DNA of 64,000 nt, from positions 1,178,001 through 1,242,000 of the forward strand of contig LR792634.1 in NCBI GenBank assembly GCA_902827205.1. The letters run 5' to 3'. The position numbers were made by a program, and so were the translations under genes. Below the pieces are notes generated by a model, which was not told the DNA's origin, ran no database searches, and worked only from the letters and a program-made list of their open reading frames with translations. Within the stretch, counting starts at the first letter, position 1. Every line of letters starts with the position of its first letter. This DNA comes from Methanocaldococcus lauensis. GTDB taxonomy: Archaea; AGJL01; Methanococci; Methanococcales; Methanocaldococcaceae. Below, piece after piece: positions 2,078-56,312 of this stretch.

Positions 2078-2236
2078 AAAACTATAACAACCAAATTATA
2101 AAATTTTTTCCTATTTTACTTTAAAATTAATTTAAACTTAAGATATATTTTTTGATATTTTATTTATTTAGTGTTAATTTTTTATCTAATTAATTTTATA
2201 TTTTTAAATTGGAAAATATTTATTTTGGTGATAAGC

Positions 2237-3322
2237 TTGAAATTTATAGACTTATTTTGTGGATGTGGGGGATTTTCAAGAGGTTTTGTAGAAGAAGGTT
2301 TTGAACCATTGGTGGCTATTGAATTAGATGAAGATGCTGCTTTTTCCTATGTATTAAATTTTAATGGAGAAATATATGAAAAAGTTAGAGATGGAGAATA
2401 TAGATTAAAGGAATTAAAAGGTTATGTAGGAAGTTACCCATTCAAATTTCCTTTTGAAGAGGAAGACATAAAGTGGTTAAGAAGATTGGGAACATTAAAT
2501 GAGAAAACTGAAAAATTAAAGCCAATAGTTATTAACGATGACATTAGGGAGATACATTCCTTAGATATAAAAAAATTCTGTAAAAATAAAAAAGTAGATG
2601 TTATTATTGGAGGACCTCCTTGTGAAGGATATACAGGGGCTAATCCTAAGAGAGAAAAAAATCCCTATGATAGATTGTATAAAGATGAAACTGGAAGGTT
2701 AGTTTTAGAATTTATAAGGATAGTAGGAGATTTACAACCAAAAATATTTGTTATGGAAAATGTTCCTGGAATTAAAGAAGTTAGAGGAGAAATAATAAAG
2801 GAGTTTAGAGAAGTTGGCTATGAGGATGTATATTTCAATATCTTAAGAGCAGAAGATTATGGAAATCCATCTGTAAGAAGAAGAGTTTTTGTATCAAATA
2901 TAGAAATTAATCCTGAAAAGAAAGAACCAAAAACTGTTATTGAGGCAATAGGAGATTTAATGTATAAAGGTAGAGACATCCCAAATCATGAATTTGCCGC
3001 TTTACCAGCAAGGTTTAGGAAGAGAGTTCATAAATTAGGTTGGGGAGATGCTTTTATATATTTCAAAGGGGCAAATAGAAGATTAGGTAATTATATAAGA
3101 TTACATCCTCTTAAATTGTCTGAAACTGTTATGGGTAAGAGATTCTTTATCCATCCTTATGAAGATAGATTATTAACACCAAGAGAACAAGCGAGATTAA
3201 TGAGTTATCCTGATTATCATCTATTTGCAGGAGGTATAAGAAGTTGCTATAATCAGATTGGAGAAAGTGTTCCTGTAGCTTTAAGTAGAGCTATAGCACG
3301 AGAAATTAAAAATAATTTATAA
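2237..3322 (+). CDS. DNA (cytosine-5-)-methyltransferase
   Basis: A 361-aa C5-cytosine DNA methyltransferase. The motifs appear in order: motif I FIDLFCGCGGFSRGF binding S-adenosylmethionine at the N-terminus, motif IV GGPPCEGY with the catalytic cysteine (about residue 130), motif VI FVMENVPG, motif VIII RRRVF, a target-recognition region, and motifs IX-X ending in YNQIGESVPVALSRAIA. I chose TTG at 2237, which lies four bases after GGTGAT and gives the usual short N-terminus; the frame stays open further upstream to 2171 but that stretch is only hydrophobic AT-rich sequence. No restriction endonuclease gene is adjacent, so it is either solitary or its partner lies elsewhere. The recognition site cannot be read from sequence. 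The tail is repeated in decayed form 65 bases downstream. Confidence 0.92.
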   Translation: MKFIDLFCGCGGFSRGFVEEGFEPLVAIELDEDAAFSYVLNFNGEIYEKVRDGEYRLKELKGYVGSYPFKFPFEEEDIKWLRRLGTLNEKTEKLKPIVINDDIREIHSLDIKKFCKNKKVDVIIGGPPCEGYTGANPKREKNPYDRLYKDETGRLVLEFIRIVGDLQPKIFVMENVPGIKEVRGEIIKEFREVGYEDVYFNILRAEDYGNPSVRRRVFVSNIEINPEKKEPKTVIEAIGDLMYKGRDIPNHEFAALPARFRKRVHKLGWGDAFIYFKGANRRLGNYIRLHPLKLSETVMGKRFFIHPYEDRLLTPREQARLMSYPDYHLFAGGIRSCYNQIGESVPVALSRAIAREIKNNL

Positions 3323-3326
3323 AGTT

Positions 3327-3354
3327 ACACCTCCGAGCGTAAGCGAGGAGGTGT
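3327..3354. repeat. Palindromic element C, copy 1 (inverse orientation)
   Basis: ACACCTCC and GGAGGTGT form a perfect 8-bp stem around a 12-base centre. On the opposite strand the core reads CCTCGCTTACGCTCGG, matching with one change the core of a repeat at 24832-24859 and closely one at 54911-54937. The flanking arms differ between copies but stay complementary. It sits directly after the methyltransferase stop codon and beside a copy of element B. Confidence 0.75.
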
Positions 3355-3365
3355 TATGTTTTGGT

Positions 3366-3386
3366 GAAGCTTTTACTAAAAGGTTC
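3366..3386. repeat. Palindromic element B, copy 1
   Basis: GAAGCTTTT-ACT-AAAAGGTTC is an inverted repeat with 9-base arms and one mismatch. It matches the perfect palindrome at 24799-24819 when that is read on the other strand. Here it separates the intact methyltransferase from a scrap of methyltransferase tail. Confidence 0.7.
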
Positions 3387-3387
3387 G

Positions 3388-3453
3388 GAAGAGAGTGTTC
3401 CAGTATCTTTGAGTAGAGCTATAGCTAAGGTAGTTAAAGAAAACTTAAAATAA
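3388..3453 (+). pseudogene. Remnant of a C5-methyltransferase C-terminus
   Basis: Reading from 3388 gives 21 codons, EESVPVSLSRAIAKVVKENLK, then TAA. This is a diverged copy of the end of the intact methyltransferase just upstream (GESVPVALSRAIAREIKNNL), with the same relation to the stop codon. No start, ribosome site or upstream coding sequence is present; palindromic elements C and B fill the space between the two tails. It looks like the stranded 3' end of a second or older methyltransferase gene left by recombination or element insertion. It is not expected to be translated. Confidence 0.75.
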
Positions 3454-13043: not shown

Positions 13044-13076
13044 CCCATAGGGGGCTCCGCCCCCTATTGGTATCCC
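13044..13076. repeat. Palindromic element A, copy 1
   Basis: CCC then ATAGGGGG-CTCCG-CCCCCTAT, an 8-bp perfect stem, then TTGGTATCCC. The arms and the trailing TTGG(T/G)AT motif recur in five other copies in this window. Confidence 0.8.
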
Positions 13077-13077
13077 G

Positions 13078-13113
13078 CCCCATAGGAGGATTCCACCCTC
13101 CTATTGGTATACC
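13078..13113. repeat. Palindromic element A, copy 2
   Basis: ATAGGAGG and CCTCCTAT form an 8-bp stem around ATTCCAC, followed by TGGTATACC. Relative to copy 1 the middle of the stem changed on both sides (G to A, C to T), so pairing is kept. Confidence 0.8.
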
Positions 13114-13189
13114 TCCCATATTAAGCATGCTTTTTTAATTTTTAATTATTTTTATTTTTTATACAGGTTCCCATCCTTATTTTAATAAA

Positions 13190-13222
13190 CCCATAGGGGC
13201 TTCGTCCCTATTGGTATACCCC
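13190..13222. repeat. Palindromic element A, copy 3
   Basis: ATAGGG pairs with CCCTAT around GCTTCGT, with one extra possible G-U pair, followed by TGGTATACCCC. It is preceded by a near-identical copy of the 20-base sequence that precedes copy 1, so the repeated unit extends to about 50 bases here. Confidence 0.8.
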
Positions 13223-13686
13223 ATTTATTTTTAGTTATTATCCTTGTTTTAATGGACTAACGATTCAAACCCTACCAACTATTGCTTATTTTATACTCGA
13301 ACTCCTATATAAATCTTTCTTTTAACATCCGATTTTTCTGACTGCCTGATTATCAAAGTATTTATAAGAGTAAGAAAGGTTGTGCTAACTATTTATAAAT
13401 CCAATACACAACCATAAACAAAAATCTCAATAATCAAACCTTATTTTATATATTTAAAAATAAAACTAAACTTAAAATTATAAAAATAAAAATAAATAAC
13501 TAAAATCTCTAAAAAATCTAAATTTTAATAAGAAAAAAATAGTAATACTTTTTATCAATTTTCTAGTACCAAATCCAAACAACCCCTTTATAAATGCAAG
13601 AAAGTAAAATTAATATTATTAATATGCATATTAAAAAAGTTAATAAAATTTAAGGAAGCATAACTTATTTATATTTAAATTATAAT

Positions 13687-23368: not shown

Positions 23369-24676
23369 TTACAATAAATGAGGGGGAACAATATCTTTAT
23401 AAATCAAATCTGCATAAGTTTCTCTTTCTCTAATTATAAATACTCCCTTTTTACTTGTTAAAATCATTCTTGGTCTTCCTCTTGCATTGTAGTTGTTAGC
23501 CATACTTATTCCATAAGCACCAACATCAAATATAGCCAATACATCCCCTATATCAACTTTGTCCAACTCTCTGTCTCTACCAAAAACATCACTACTTTCA
23601 CAAAGCCCTCCTGCTATACTAACAATTTCTTTTTCATCCTTAACTTTACAGTTTATTATGTGATGATATGCCTCATACATAGCAGGTCTCATCATATCGT
23701 TCATTCCAGTATCAATCATAACCCATTTTGTTACTGGTGTTTCTTTTATGTGATGAACCTTCCCCAATAAATAGCCAGCAGTGGCAACTATACTTCTACC
23801 TGGTTCTAATATTAGGTTTGGAATCTCTACTTTATCTTCATATTCTAACATTGTATCTATTATTGCGTCTGCCAAATCTTTTGGAGTGGGTATTTTTTTA
23901 TCTTTTTCATAAGGAATTCCTAAACCTCCTCCCAAATTAACATCTTCTATTTCTATACCCTCATTTTTTAATTCTACGACAAAATCCATAACTTTTCTTG
24001 TTTCTTCAACAAATGGACTTAGATCTGTTAATTGAGAGCCAATATGACAATGAACTCCAACCACATTAACATTTTCCATTTCCATAGCCATTTTTATTGC
24101 CTTCAAAGCCAAACCACTCTCAACATCTAAACCAAACTTATTCTTCTTTAAACCTGTTGAAATCTTTGGATGTGTTTTTGGATCAACATTTGGATTTATT
24201 CTAAAAGCAACATTTGCTACTTCTCCAAGCTCTTTTGCAGTTTCATTTATCAAAATTAATTCACTTATGCTATCAACATTGAAGGCTCTAATATTTGCTT
24301 CAATTCCCATTATAATCTCTTCTTTTGTTTTACAATTTCCATTGAAAACTATTTTCTCTGAAGGTACATTTGATAACTTTGCTATATATAACTCTCCCCC
24401 ACTGACTACATCAGCCCCACATCCTAATTTAGTTAATAATCTTGTAATAGCCAAGTTAGCGTTTGCTTTGTATGCGTAGGCAAGAATAAAATCTTTTCCA
24501 GTCTCTTCTTCCCACCTTTTAAACGCCTCAAAATATCTATTTACATTTATTTTAATTTGCTCCTCTGACATAACATACAAAGGAGTCCCAAACTTCTCAG
24601 TCAATTCTATTACATCATAGCCATCTATAAAAAATCTCCCTTCTTTTATCTCTACTGTATCATTACCTAAAAACAT
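23369..24676 (-). CDS. lysA: Diaminopimelate decarboxylase
   Basis: A 435-aa PLP enzyme of the alanine-racemase/ornithine-decarboxylase fold that makes lysine from meso-diaminopimelate. The PLP lysine is in LAYAYKANANLAI near residue 72, the histidine in HCHIGSQL near 212, GGGLGIPY binds phosphate near 255, and CESSDVFGRDREL holds the active-site cysteine near 365. GGTGAAAAG precedes the ATG. dapB for the same pathway is at 48 kb, so the lysine genes are scattered. Confidence 0.95.
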   Translation of the reverse strand: MFLGNDTVEIKEGRFFIDGYDVIELTEKFGTPLYVMSEEQIKINVNRYFEAFKRWEEETGKDFILAYAYKANANLAITRLLTKLGCGADVVSGGELYIAKLSNVPSEKIVFNGNCKTKEEIIMGIEANIRAFNVDSISELILINETAKELGEVANVAFRINPNVDPKTHPKISTGLKKNKFGLDVESGLALKAIKMAMEMENVNVVGVHCHIGSQLTDLSPFVEETRKVMDFVVELKNEGIEIEDVNLGGGLGIPYEKDKKIPTPKDLADAIIDTMLEYEDKVEIPNLILEPGRSIVATAGYLLGKVHHIKETPVTKWVMIDTGMNDMMRPAMYEAYHHIINCKVKDEKEIVSIAGGLCESSDVFGRDRELDKVDIGDVLAIFDVGAYGISMANNYNARGRPRMILTSKKGVFIIRERETYADLIYKDIVPPHLL

Positions 24677-24699: not shown

Positions 24700-24729
24700 A
24701 CCATAGGGCTTCGCCCTATTGGGATACCC
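24700..24729. repeat. Palindromic element A, copy 4
   Basis: ATAGGG-CTTCG-CCCTAT followed by TGGGATACCC. It begins the palindrome-rich stretch between lysA and tRNA-Arg and is followed within 10 bases by element B. Confidence 0.8.
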
Positions 24730-24738
24730 AAATTTTTG

Positions 24739-24763
24739 ATGAACCTTTTTTTAAAAGGTTCAT
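24739..24763. repeat. Palindromic element B, copy 2
   Basis: ATGAACCTTTT-TTT-AAAAGGTTCAT is a perfect inverted repeat with 11-bp arms and a three-base loop. It lies between element A and a truncated tRNA copy. Confidence 0.8.
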
Positions 24764-24765
24764 GT

Positions 24766-24798
24766 GAATAAAAAATACGCCCCGGTCGGGATTCAAAC
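24766..24798. repeat. Direct repeat carrying a truncated copy of the tRNA-Arg 3' end
   Basis: These 33 bases match 24946-24978 at 31 positions, at a distance of exactly 180 bases. The copy covers the last 21 bases of the tRNA gene (T loop, T stem 3' strand, acceptor, discriminator) plus 12 bases beyond it, and then breaks off into element B. This is the pattern expected of an attachment-site duplication at a tRNA 3' end, or of a partial gene duplication. Confidence 0.8.
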
Positions 24799-24819
24799 GA
24801 ACCTTTTAGTAAAAGGTTC
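24799..24819. repeat. Palindromic element B, copy 3
   Basis: GAACCTTTT-AGT-AAAAGGTTC is a perfect inverted repeat with 9-bp arms. It starts immediately where the truncated tRNA copy ends. Confidence 0.8.
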
Positions 24820-24831
24820 ATCAAAATGGAT

Positions 24832-24859
24832 GCATTACCTCGCTAACGCTCGGCAATGT
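24832..24859. repeat. Palindromic element C, copy 2
   Basis: Core CCTCGCTAACGCTCGG with arms GCATTACC and GGCAATGT that pair except at one position. It follows element B copy 3 by 12 bases, the same B-C neighbourhood as at 3.3 kb but on the opposite strand. Confidence 0.75.
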
Positions 24860-24878
24860 CTCTTAGCAAAACTTGGAC

Positions 24879-24908
24879 ATTAATTGCCCCTGAAAGGGGC
24901 AACTTAAT
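24879..24908. repeat. Strong hairpin, TTGCCCC/GGGGCAA
   Basis: TTGCCCC-TGAAA-GGGGCAA is a perfect 7-bp stem, extended outside by ATTAA and TTAAT. I find no second copy in the window. It could be a terminator-like hairpin or another member of the palindrome set. Confidence 0.6.
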
Positions 24909-24914
24909 GGACGT

Positions 24915-24946
24915 GGGGTATACCAATAGGGGGTTTCCCCCTATGG
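24915..24946. repeat. Palindromic element A, copy 5 (inverse orientation)
   Basis: Read on the minus strand: CCATAGGGGG-AAA-CCCCCTATTGG then TATACCCC (given in parts). It has an 8-bp perfect stem and lies directly beside the tRNA 3' flank. Confidence 0.8.
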
Positions 24947-24957
24947 AATAAAAAATA

Positions 24958-25029
24958 CGCCCCGGCCGGGATTCGAACCCGGGTCTTGACATCCGCAGTG
25001 TCAAAGGATATCCGCTACCCCACCGGGGC
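24958..25029 (-). tRNA. tRNA-Arg (anticodon GCG)
   Basis: A 72-base cloverleaf on the minus strand. The acceptor stem GCCCCGG pairs with CCGGGGC, followed by discriminator G with no encoded CCA. The D arm holds A14, G15, G18, G19 and A21. The anticodon stem TGACA/TGTCA closes a seven-base loop CTGCGGA, so the anticodon is GCG, reading the arginine codon CGC. The variable loop is AGAC and the T arm is CCGGG-TTCGAAT-CCCGG. There is no intron. A T-run follows the 3' end (TATTTTTTATT), suited to termination. The 3' 21 bases are repeated 180 bases downstream. Confidence 0.95.
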
Positions 25030-25080
25030 TAAAAAATAATAAAATGAATTATTAAAATAAATATCATAACCTAAATAAAA

Positions 25081-26385
25081 TTATGGAGTTAATCTCTGTC
25101 TATCTCTTGGGAATAGGACACACTCTCTAATGTTTTCTTGCTGTGTTAAAACCATTGTAAATCTATCTGCCCCTAAACCCCATCCAGCGTGTGGAGGCAT
25201 TCCATACTTAAATGCCTCTAAGTAATAAGTAAATCCATCTGGATTTAGTCCTTTTTTCTTAATATTTTCTACTAATAAATCATACTGATGAATTCTTTGA
25301 GCTCCAGAAGAGATTTCTAAATCTTTATACATTAAATCAAATGCCTTACAAACTTCTGGATTATCTTCTTTTGGCATAGTATAGAATGGTCTTGTCTCAG
25401 ATGGCCAGTCAGTTATAAAGTATAATCCTCCCATCTCATCTCCAATAGCCTTTTCAGCCTCTCTACTCAAATCTTGCCCCCAAACAATTTCAACGCCCTT
25501 AGAGTTCGCAATATCAATAGCTTCATCATATGTAATTCTATCAAACTTTTTTGGAGGTATTTCAAATTTAATTCCTAATATCTCAATCTCCTTGCTTCTA
25601 TTTTCATAGACATCTACAAATGCATTATATACAACCTTTTCCAACATTTCCATAGCATCATTATCATCAGCAAATGCCATTTCAATGTCTATTGATGTAG
25701 CTTCATTTAAATGCCTTCTTGTGTTATGTTCCTCAGCTCTAAATATAGGGGCTATTTCAAACACTCTATCCAAACCTGTAGCCATTAACATCTGTTTATA
25801 GAGTTGAGGACTCTGCCCTAAAAAAGCCTCTCTCTCAAAGTAAGATATTGGGAATAGTTCAGTTCCTCCCTCAGTGCATGATGCAACTAGCTTTGGAGTA
25901 TTTACTTCAATAAATCCTTCATTATATAGCGTTTTTCTAATGGATTTTAACATTTCATTTCTTATTTTAAATATTGCTTGTATTTTTGGCCTTCTTAAAT
26001 CTAAAAATCTGTTTTCTAACCTTGTATCTAACTCTGCTGGAACTTTTTCAGAAGGATCTAAAGGAAGAGGTCTTTGAGCAGTATTTAAAACTTCCAAATC
26101 TAATGGTAATATTTCAAATCCATTTGGTGCTTTTTCATTTGCAATAACCTTTCCTTTAATTGCAATAACATCCTCAGCTCCAAGTTTTTTTATTCTTTTA
26201 AATAACTCCTCTCCAATCTTTTGTTTTGGTGCTACTATTTGTAAAAATCCTTCTCTATCTCTCAAAATAACAAATATAATTTTACCTAACGCTCTAATTG
26301 AATGCACCCAGCCCATTACAATTACTTCTTCTCCATCCATTTCTGGCTTAATATCTGCTGAATAGTGTGTTCTTTTCCATTTCAT
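25081..26385 (-). CDS. aspS: Aspartyl-tRNA synthetase
   Basis: A 434-aa class IIb synthetase of the short archaeal type. The N-terminal OB anticodon-binding domain begins with [23 protein letters not shown]. The class II catalytic core follows: motif 2 around [15 protein letters not shown] near residue 215 and motif 3 around [13 protein letters not shown] near residue 405. The bacterial insertion domain is missing, as in archaea. Whether it is discriminating or also charges tRNA-Asn is not decided from what I can see. GGTGAG precedes the ATG. tRNA-Arg lies just downstream. Confidence 0.95.
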
Positions 26386-54520: not shown

Positions 54521-54844
54521 GAAATAAAAATTAAACTCATAAAATTTTAAAATTTATTCATAATAATTAATACTCAATCTTGGAAATTTTTAGGAAATAT
54601 AATAATAAATCATAAAAAAATTAAATTTTTCTTATTATATATTAAAATTCTATAAATATTTAGAATTATTATAATGATTTTTTAACATTTTTATTATTTT
54701 ATAATAAAGATTTTAGAATTTACCGAGAGTCGTTATTACTCTTGAAAAGTATATAAATTAATAAATATATAAATTTAATTAAAAATAAAATTTCTATCTT
54801 TTAAACCCATAAGTAATTTTATTCATATCAATTATATCACTTTA
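54521..54844. other. AT-rich intergenic region before the CRISPR array
   Basis: No gene is seen. A small hairpin AGAGT-CGTTATT-ACTCT lies at 54726-54742, followed by TATA-like repeats (AGTATATAAATTAATAAATATATAAATT in parts). The rest is AT-rich without clear structure. It lies at the leader-distal side of the array. Confidence 0.5.
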
Positions 54845-54875
54845 TTTCCATCCCCTTAGGGGTCTGAGTTTTAAA

Positions 54876-54905
54876 CCCATAGGGCTCCGCCCTATTGGGA
54901 TACCC
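54876..54905. repeat. Palindromic element A, copy 6, inside the old end of the CRISPR array
   Basis: CCC then ATAGGG-CTCCG-CCCTAT then TGGGATACCC, starting exactly at the end of the first degenerate CRISPR repeat. It takes the place of a spacer together with element C. Confidence 0.8.
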
Positions 54906-54910
54906 GGGAT

Positions 54911-54937
54911 GCATTGCCTCGCAATGCTCGGCAATGC
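54911..54937. repeat. Palindromic element C, copy 3
   Basis: GCATTGCC and GGCAATGC form a perfect 8-bp stem around TCGCAATGCTC. Compared with copy 2 a stem position changed so that pairing is complete. It follows element A by five bases. Confidence 0.78.
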
Positions 54938-56312
54938 CTCTTAATTAATATTATTTTCCCCTTAGGGTCTGATTTTAGACAAGTATTTTAACAAAAAAGA
55001 GATTTTAAAAATCATAATTTTTCCATCCCCTTAGGGGTCTGATTTTAGACCAGTAATCACAGCGAACCATTAGACAGCCGCCGCCGATTTTCCATCCCCT
55101 TAGGGGTCTGATTTTAGACGTAGATTTGCTAAATAAGGGTTATGGTTTGGATATAGTTTTTCCATCCCTTTAGGGGTCTGATTTTAGACTTACAGTTTTT
55201 TATGATTTCCATTTTAATCCCCTCTATATTTCCATCCCCTTAGGGGTCTGATTTTAGACTTCTGAGGTAAAAATCTAAAAGAGGGATAGTATGAAATGCA
55301 AATTTCCATCCCCTTAGGGGTCTGATTTTAGACCAAATTGCTTTGTATGGATCTATTGGTTCGTCAAACACTCTAATTTCCATCCCCTTAGGGGTCTGAT
55401 TTTAGACTCAGTTATGATGAACTGTCAAATACAATAATAGTTATATTTCCATCCCCTTAGGGGTCTGATTTTAGACCCCCATCCTATTCTTTTTATTATG
55501 TTTCCAATTCTTACATTTCCATCCCCTTAGGGGTCTGATTTTAGACAATAATCCTTCAAAATCAGCAAGACCTCTGCAACTAAATTTATTTCCATCCCCT
55601 TAGGGGTCTGATTTTAGACGGTGATAAAATGAGAAGAAGCTACAAAGAACACTACAAATTTCCATCCCCTTAGGGGTCTGATTTTAGACTTATGTAAAGA
55701 TTGTTAAAGAAGGTAAGATAGTGTATGATTTCCATCCCCTTAGGGGTCTGATTTTAGACTTTGTTCCACTTGGGACAATCATTCCATAGATTACTACTAT
55801 TTCCATCCCCTTAGGGGTCTGATTTTAGACAAATCAACTAATTTTATGTCTAAAAATGTCTTCTTTGAATTTCCATCCCCTTAGGGGTCTGATTTTAGAC
55901 AAAAAATGAAGTTGATACTATCATAAACAAAAGAAAAATTTCCATCCCCTTAGGGGTCTGATTTTAGACCATCACTATACAAGATAACAAAATAGTAATA
56001 CATAAATTTCCATCCCCTTAGGGGTCTGATTTTAGACCCCCACGCATTTGGAGCTATACCTTCTTCAACTATATTTCCATCCCCTTAGGGGTCTGATTTT
56101 AGACAAATCATAAAAGAACTATGCAAGTTAATGAAAGAATTATTTCCATCCCCTTAGGGGTCTGATTTTAGACGTAATAAATTCAACAATGGAGCATTTA
56201 AATTCGCATAAATTTCCATCCCCTTAGGGGTCTGATTTTAGACCATTTGCGTAGTTTCTTAGCATCTCTTTGTATTTTTCATTTCCATCCCCTTAGGGGT
56301 CTGATTTTAGAC

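Follow-up and report, generated by a model that had tools for sequence, protein, structure and literature searches.

A palindromic element between two copies of a tRNA-Arg end in Methanocaldococcus lauensis, a probable case of long target duplication

In the stretch of 64,000 nucleotides from Methanocaldococcus lauensis that we analyzed (the window), a tRNA-Arg(GCG) gene lies between the protein-coding genes aspS and lysA (Table 1). Read in the orientation of the tRNA, the order of the features is tRNA-Arg, a T-rich flank, a palindromic element (E1), the tRNA end repeated together with its flank, a short further element (E2), and lysA. In a search of the region against Rfam, the tRNA alone reaches the cut-off, and the remaining matches are those expected by chance.

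Table 1. Features at the tRNA-Arg(GCG) locus, with positions in the window
Feature	Position	Strand	Basis or remark
lysA, diaminopimelate decarboxylase, downstream neighbor; anchors the empty sites of relatives	23369..24676	-	TIGR01048, 553 bits
E2, second short element copy, orientation opposite to E1	24701..24765	+	Further genomic copies
Detached repeat copy: displaced tRNA 3′ end, 31/33 identical, decaying	24766..24798	-	
Palindromic element E1 (147 bp), inserted between the repeats	24799..24945	-	First base may overlap 24946
Attached repeat copy: T-loop to tRNA 3′ end and 12 nt of T-rich flank, joined to the tRNA gene	24946..24978	-	
tRNA-Arg(GCG), intact gene	24958..25029	-	ARAGORN; Rfam RF00005, 57.5 bits
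aspS, aspartate--tRNA(Asn) ligase, upstream neighbor	25081..26385	-	TIGR00458, 776 bits

Direct comparison of the two copies, whose starts are 180 bp apart, shows identity at 31 of 33 positions. Each copy consists of 21 nt of the tRNA-Arg 3′ end and 12 nt of the T-rich downstream flank, and the ARAGORN prediction fits this span. Elsewhere in the 64-kb window, neither strand has a match to the 33-mer of at least 22/33; when the neighborhood was shuffled 3000 times, the highest value was 21/33. A preliminary description of this DNA, which had reported a 33-base match with two differences covering the tRNA end and its flank, is thus confirmed, as is its claim that the copy stops exactly at the palindromic element. 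Both mismatches to the intact tRNA-Arg are in the detached copy, one in the T-stem (CCCGG to CCCGA) and one in the T-loop (TTCGAAT to TTTGAAT). E1 has the terminal hairpins CCATAGGGGGAAACCCCCTATTGG and GAACCTTTTACTAAAAGGTTC with internal hairpins in between, and the detached tRNA end is enclosed by 36-nt inverted arms that E2 and E1 form together (inverted repeats I1 and I2). The folding energy of the region from 24701 to 24946 is −59.4 kcal/mol, compared with a mean of −26.1 kcal/mol for shuffled sequences (z = −9.3).

The 147 bases of palindromes that had been noticed between the repeats proved to be a single member of a family of palindromic repeats that occupies dozens of loci in each Methanocaldococcus genome. 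Searches with E1 and E2 gave 39 matches in the genome of M. lauensis, 49 in G008 and 43 in G006 (in the latter, to a related element). The matches listed group into 22, 40 and 37 loci, respectively, counts that are search matches and non-exhaustive. Copies of the family are mosaics of hairpin modules in either orientation, and the two ends of the element are different hairpins; a further copy or mosaic lies at positions 13045-13252 of the window. Like MITEs, the elements are short and non-coding, with many dispersed copies (22 to 40 loci in each of the three genomes), and they are polymorphic in presence, with empty sites at tRNA and protein-gene loci. At more than 20 loci they are also bounded by direct repeats of variable length (27-61 bp), which would be target-site duplications if they arose at insertion. 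Many family members elsewhere have no detectable direct repeat. Neither an autonomous partner nor a mobilizing enzyme was found. A Y1 (REP/IS200-like) transposase was rejected as the mobilizing enzyme here, given that the genome of M. lauensis has no match to PF01797; such matches occur only in G001 and, in a broken form, in G011.

The tRNA-Arg locus varies among related genomes. In G008, G001 and G012, tRNA-Arg(GCG) is followed directly by lysA, with about 40 bp between them and with neither the element nor the copy. The preliminary description had held that a copy found at the same place in all relatives would point to simple duplication, and had proposed a search of relatives for an element integrated between the repeats. 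The three syntenic relatives just named do not share the copy, and G009, a close relative, has the same arrangement as M. lauensis. Because G009 shares the arrangement and the changes in its detached copy are partly different, the insertion of E1 is probably older than the split of the two genomes. The homology between them (L002/L261) stops at the 5′ end of tRNA-Arg (window position 25030), upstream of which M. lauensis has aspS and G009 has something else. Among 11 loci probed, we found no clean recent insertion that distinguishes M. lauensis from G009. Four of the 11 have both flanks on one contig, with equal spacing at two and different spacing at the other two (L037 and L047), both of which are rearranged or partly deleted.

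The arrangement recurs at other tRNA genes. In both G008 and G001, tRNA-Ile(GAT) is followed by an element and then by a repeat of its own end, and another element lies between tRNA-Gly(TCC) of G008 and a repeat of that gene's own 3′ end. Elements and repeated own 3′ ends are also found at tRNA-Cys and at an intron-bearing tRNA, taken to be tRNA-Met, in G008, at tRNA-Val(GAC) in M. lauensis, and at a tRNA taken to be tRNA-Asp in G006; at the counterpart of the latter in G008, the arrangement is present in decayed form. The repeat at the tRNAs is that tRNA's own end, and by eye it starts mostly at G53/T54 of the T-loop. The tRNA-Ile gene of M. lauensis has no element, three relatives carry one there, and the native flank of this empty gene is similar to the one that follows the detached copy in G008. 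G006 has the element at tRNA-Ile but lacks the tRNA portion of the second copy, so that a subsequent deletion must be assumed there. Across three genomes, an element lies within 100 bp of the 3′ end of nine tRNAs and of the 5′ end of none. Random placement predicts about 0.33, but this contrast is overstated, because the null model places elements anywhere in the genome, genes included. Slippage can generate short direct repeats, and the tRNA end could in principle have been duplicated locally in tandem, independently of the palindromes. We regard this as scarcely tenable and refuted by the recurrence of the same element between gene-end copies at many unrelated loci, to which the empty site in relatives adds.

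A second copy of a tRNA end is routinely taken for an att scar left by a virus or plasmid, and the preliminary description had left a choice between a scar of an excised element and a site used by the palindromic elements. The latter stands, as members of the family lie at the 3′ ends of tRNA genes, accompanied by a second copy of the end concerned. The former would make the repeats the attL and attR of a virus or plasmid with a tyrosine integrase that entered at the 3′ end of tRNA-Arg and was later reduced to 147 bp by loss of its interior. The layout is indeed that of an att pair, with an intact tRNA and a truncated 3′ copy in direct orientation that starts in the T-arm. Moreover, integrases are found in G009, G006, G008, G001 and G011, and plasmids of Methanococcales integrate at tRNA 3′ ends (PMC6972569). 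The locus thus resembles the att sites of archaeal tyrosine integrases in having a direct repeat of a tRNA 3′ end beside an intact tRNA (PMC8371274, PMC6972569). It differs from them in that the same insert occurs behind many targets, including protein genes, and we did not find a repeat specific to one attB with content specific to one element. The att sites reported for Methanococcales plasmids of the pT26-2 family, moreover, lie in tRNA-Ser and tRNA-Leu genes and are longer, usually including the anticodon (PMC6972569, PMC8371274). No tyrosine integrase lies between the repeats, and a profile search of the M. lauensis genome gave no match to PF00589, although the insertion is old. In viral contigs an exact 19-mer is absent, and the 341-bp region has no match among phages and plasmids in a search that may leave out records near the genome of M. 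lauensis itself. One integrase with one attP is not sufficient, since the same element, a member of a family at dozens of loci and mostly accompanied by the repeated end of its own target, lies behind about seven tRNAs and at the ends of protein genes and CRISPR arrays. For this reason, and given the absence of PF00589, we reject the integrase scar as very unlikely.

Among the loci retrieved with the element, it is flanked by direct repeats of 27-50 bp at about 21 distinct ones, with an alignment score of at least 38 (99% of unrelated flank pairs score 37 or less). Most of these repeats are at the ends of protein genes, more commonly the 3′ end than the 5′ end, and those at protein-gene ends are 28-61 bp long. 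Sister genomes are empty at seven of the loci (L090, L094, L097, L100, L107, L111 and L114). By eye, no motif common to the starts of the duplications is seen at protein genes, while a start in the T-loop is common to the tRNAs. The repeat at L137 was set aside as an element duplication, for it comes from two adjacent paralogous genes. A second case lies within the window at 3262-3450. Here, the end of an open reading frame for a DNA cytosine-5 methyltransferase (2171-3322; TIGR00675) is repeated at 3390-3450 and is separated from the open reading frame by a short element (3333-3387); replacement differences prevail between these copies (9 of 11 differing codons).

Family copies also sit at the ends of CRISPR arrays in M. 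lauensis, between the array repeat and a variant repeat. One such array is in the window (54840-55190 and on), where the family member is bounded on one side by a variant terminal repeat and on the other by a truncated repeat of the array, and the arrangement recurs at several other arrays of this genome (L038-L044). At one of them (L042, 1349-1700, at about 293.4 kb of the genome), the array ends in a tandem duplication of a spacer, a repeat and an element, of which unequal recombination is the probable cause.

At protein genes, the detached copy usually runs into the native gene end and its flank, and the attached copy stops at the element, which can supply the stop codon. In the 14 protein-gene cases that align without gaps, the paired copies differ at 42 silent and 20 replacement codons (third positions, 45/68), although L094 alone accounts for 10 of the 42 silent differences. 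The silent fraction is therefore 0.68, compared with an average of 0.23 under random mutation of one copy and with about 0.39 by a hand estimate that allows silent change in the copy in use as well. This excess at silent sites suggests that both copies were probably coding for much of their separate history. Two processes could produce such pairs: one of the copies may have been exchanged with another species through homologous recombination, or the element may arrive with its own gene end.

The second of these would have a mobile unit of gene end plus element join a foreign end to the resident one, which would make the attached copy foreign and leave the detached one as the native end. Integrative elements of bacteria are known to replace the end of their target gene. 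Such a unit fits the excess of silent differences and the native C-terminus and flank of the detached copy, as well as the attached copies that often end in stop codons of the element. At one gene, G008 has an attached end like that of G011 and a native detached end, and in G004 the end-element unit occurs twice in tandem; at another, the attached ends of G008, G012, G007 and G006 are near-identical despite differing upstream sequence. Against this, some pairs are identical within a genome (G011 and G004 at the gene of L007/L008), which is expected of a recent duplication or of gene conversion, and ordinary homologous recombination between species that halts at the element would yield the same pattern. 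At L094, the attached end of G008 matches G007 in part only, and a unit that always moves as a whole is not upheld there. We therefore consider this reading unlikely.

Behind one ferredoxin-like gene on contig 42 of G004 (L181/L246), there are two tandem units of gene end and element, and the unit nearest the gene differs from the outer one. In G011 and G004 (L007 and L008), the insertion is at the 5′ end of the same gene, and the 40-bp repeats are identical within each genome and differ between the two genomes at two positions. The latter pattern suggests gene conversion between the copies or independent insertion.

Given that the family recurs together with the end of each target and that empty sites are reciprocal among genomes, we find an unusually long target-site duplication that preserves the gene to be the best reading. 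Specifically, we propose, with a probability of roughly 0.7, that the repeat at tRNA-Arg is a target duplication of about 33 bp from a palindromic miniature mobile element that was inserted behind the tRNA gene. In an ancestor of M. lauensis and G009, E1 would have entered directly behind tRNA-Arg(GCG) and duplicated about 33 bp of its target, which begins with the T-loop and runs past the tRNA 3′ end to include the T-rich stretch. The duplication would have been created during insertion, through staggered cleavage or a comparable step. The copy attached to the tRNA body would then preserve the function of the tRNA, leaving the displaced copy beyond the element, behind which E2 sits in the opposite orientation, free to decay. 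Restoration of the gene by duplication may likewise be how element copies survive at gene ends. Target duplications made by transposases are usually of fixed length, and the variation in repeat length from 27 to 61 bp argues against this reading. Because plain duplication and decay do not give the silent excess, the reading also requires that alleles be exchanged between species. At many loci, later homologous recombination between species would have replaced one of the two copies, up to the element.

A related possibility, to which we assign a low probability, is that the element is inserted off target by the host Cas1-Cas2 or a relative, with tRNA 3′ ends serving as repeat-like targets of which about 33 bp are duplicated. 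Most of the duplications are within the range of CRISPR repeats, at most tRNAs they start with GTTC, and in M. lauensis the element is present at CRISPR array ends as well. Casposons, with integrases of the Cas1 family, target the 3′ ends of tRNA genes and make duplications of 14-15 bp beside terminal inverted repeats, and CRISPR repeats, whose duplication is made by Cas1-Cas2, are generally 25-50 bp long (PMC6977970). The elements described here share the tRNA 3′-end targets with Cas1-family systems, and CRISPR repeats are close in length to their duplications. They differ from casposons in that there are no casposon genes between the repeats and, by eye, no motif common to all targets. Cas1 (PF01867) is present in eight element-bearing genomes (G000, G001, G006, G007, G008, G009, G011 and G012) and was not found in G002. 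This co-occurrence is weak evidence, since G010 has Cas1, yet none of its listed matches is to the element; among the matches listed, those of both G002 and G010 are to the tRNA sequence. If Cas1-Cas2 were indeed responsible, the element would be non-autonomous and would exploit the immunity machinery for its mobility.

Palindromic elements of M. jannaschii were reportedly described by Suyama, Lathe and Bork (2005, FEBS Lett 579:5281) as short, present in many copies, mostly intergenic and falling into a few groups. The family described here, with about 40 loci in G008, appears to be the same, and its duplications of gene ends look new. A review that cites this work also gives a variable target duplication of 3-26 bp for non-autonomous palindromic elements such as YPAL/RU-2 of Yersinia (PMC2229807). 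Compared by features rather than by sequence, the two families are alike in being small, hairpin-rich and non-coding, in having no simple terminal inverted repeats and in a target duplication of variable length, whereas the duplications described here are longer (27-61 bp) and span gene ends.

Because a small palindromic element probably makes copies of tRNA ends, calls of att sites in Methanocaldococcus should be checked for this family. With one copy decaying and one in use, and with empty sites in relatives, the paired copies make both the mechanism of insertion and recombination between species directly testable. We suggest that a repeat can keep inserting in a gene-dense genome if, at the ends of tRNA and protein genes, insertion becomes tolerable through a long duplication by which the gene end is restored.
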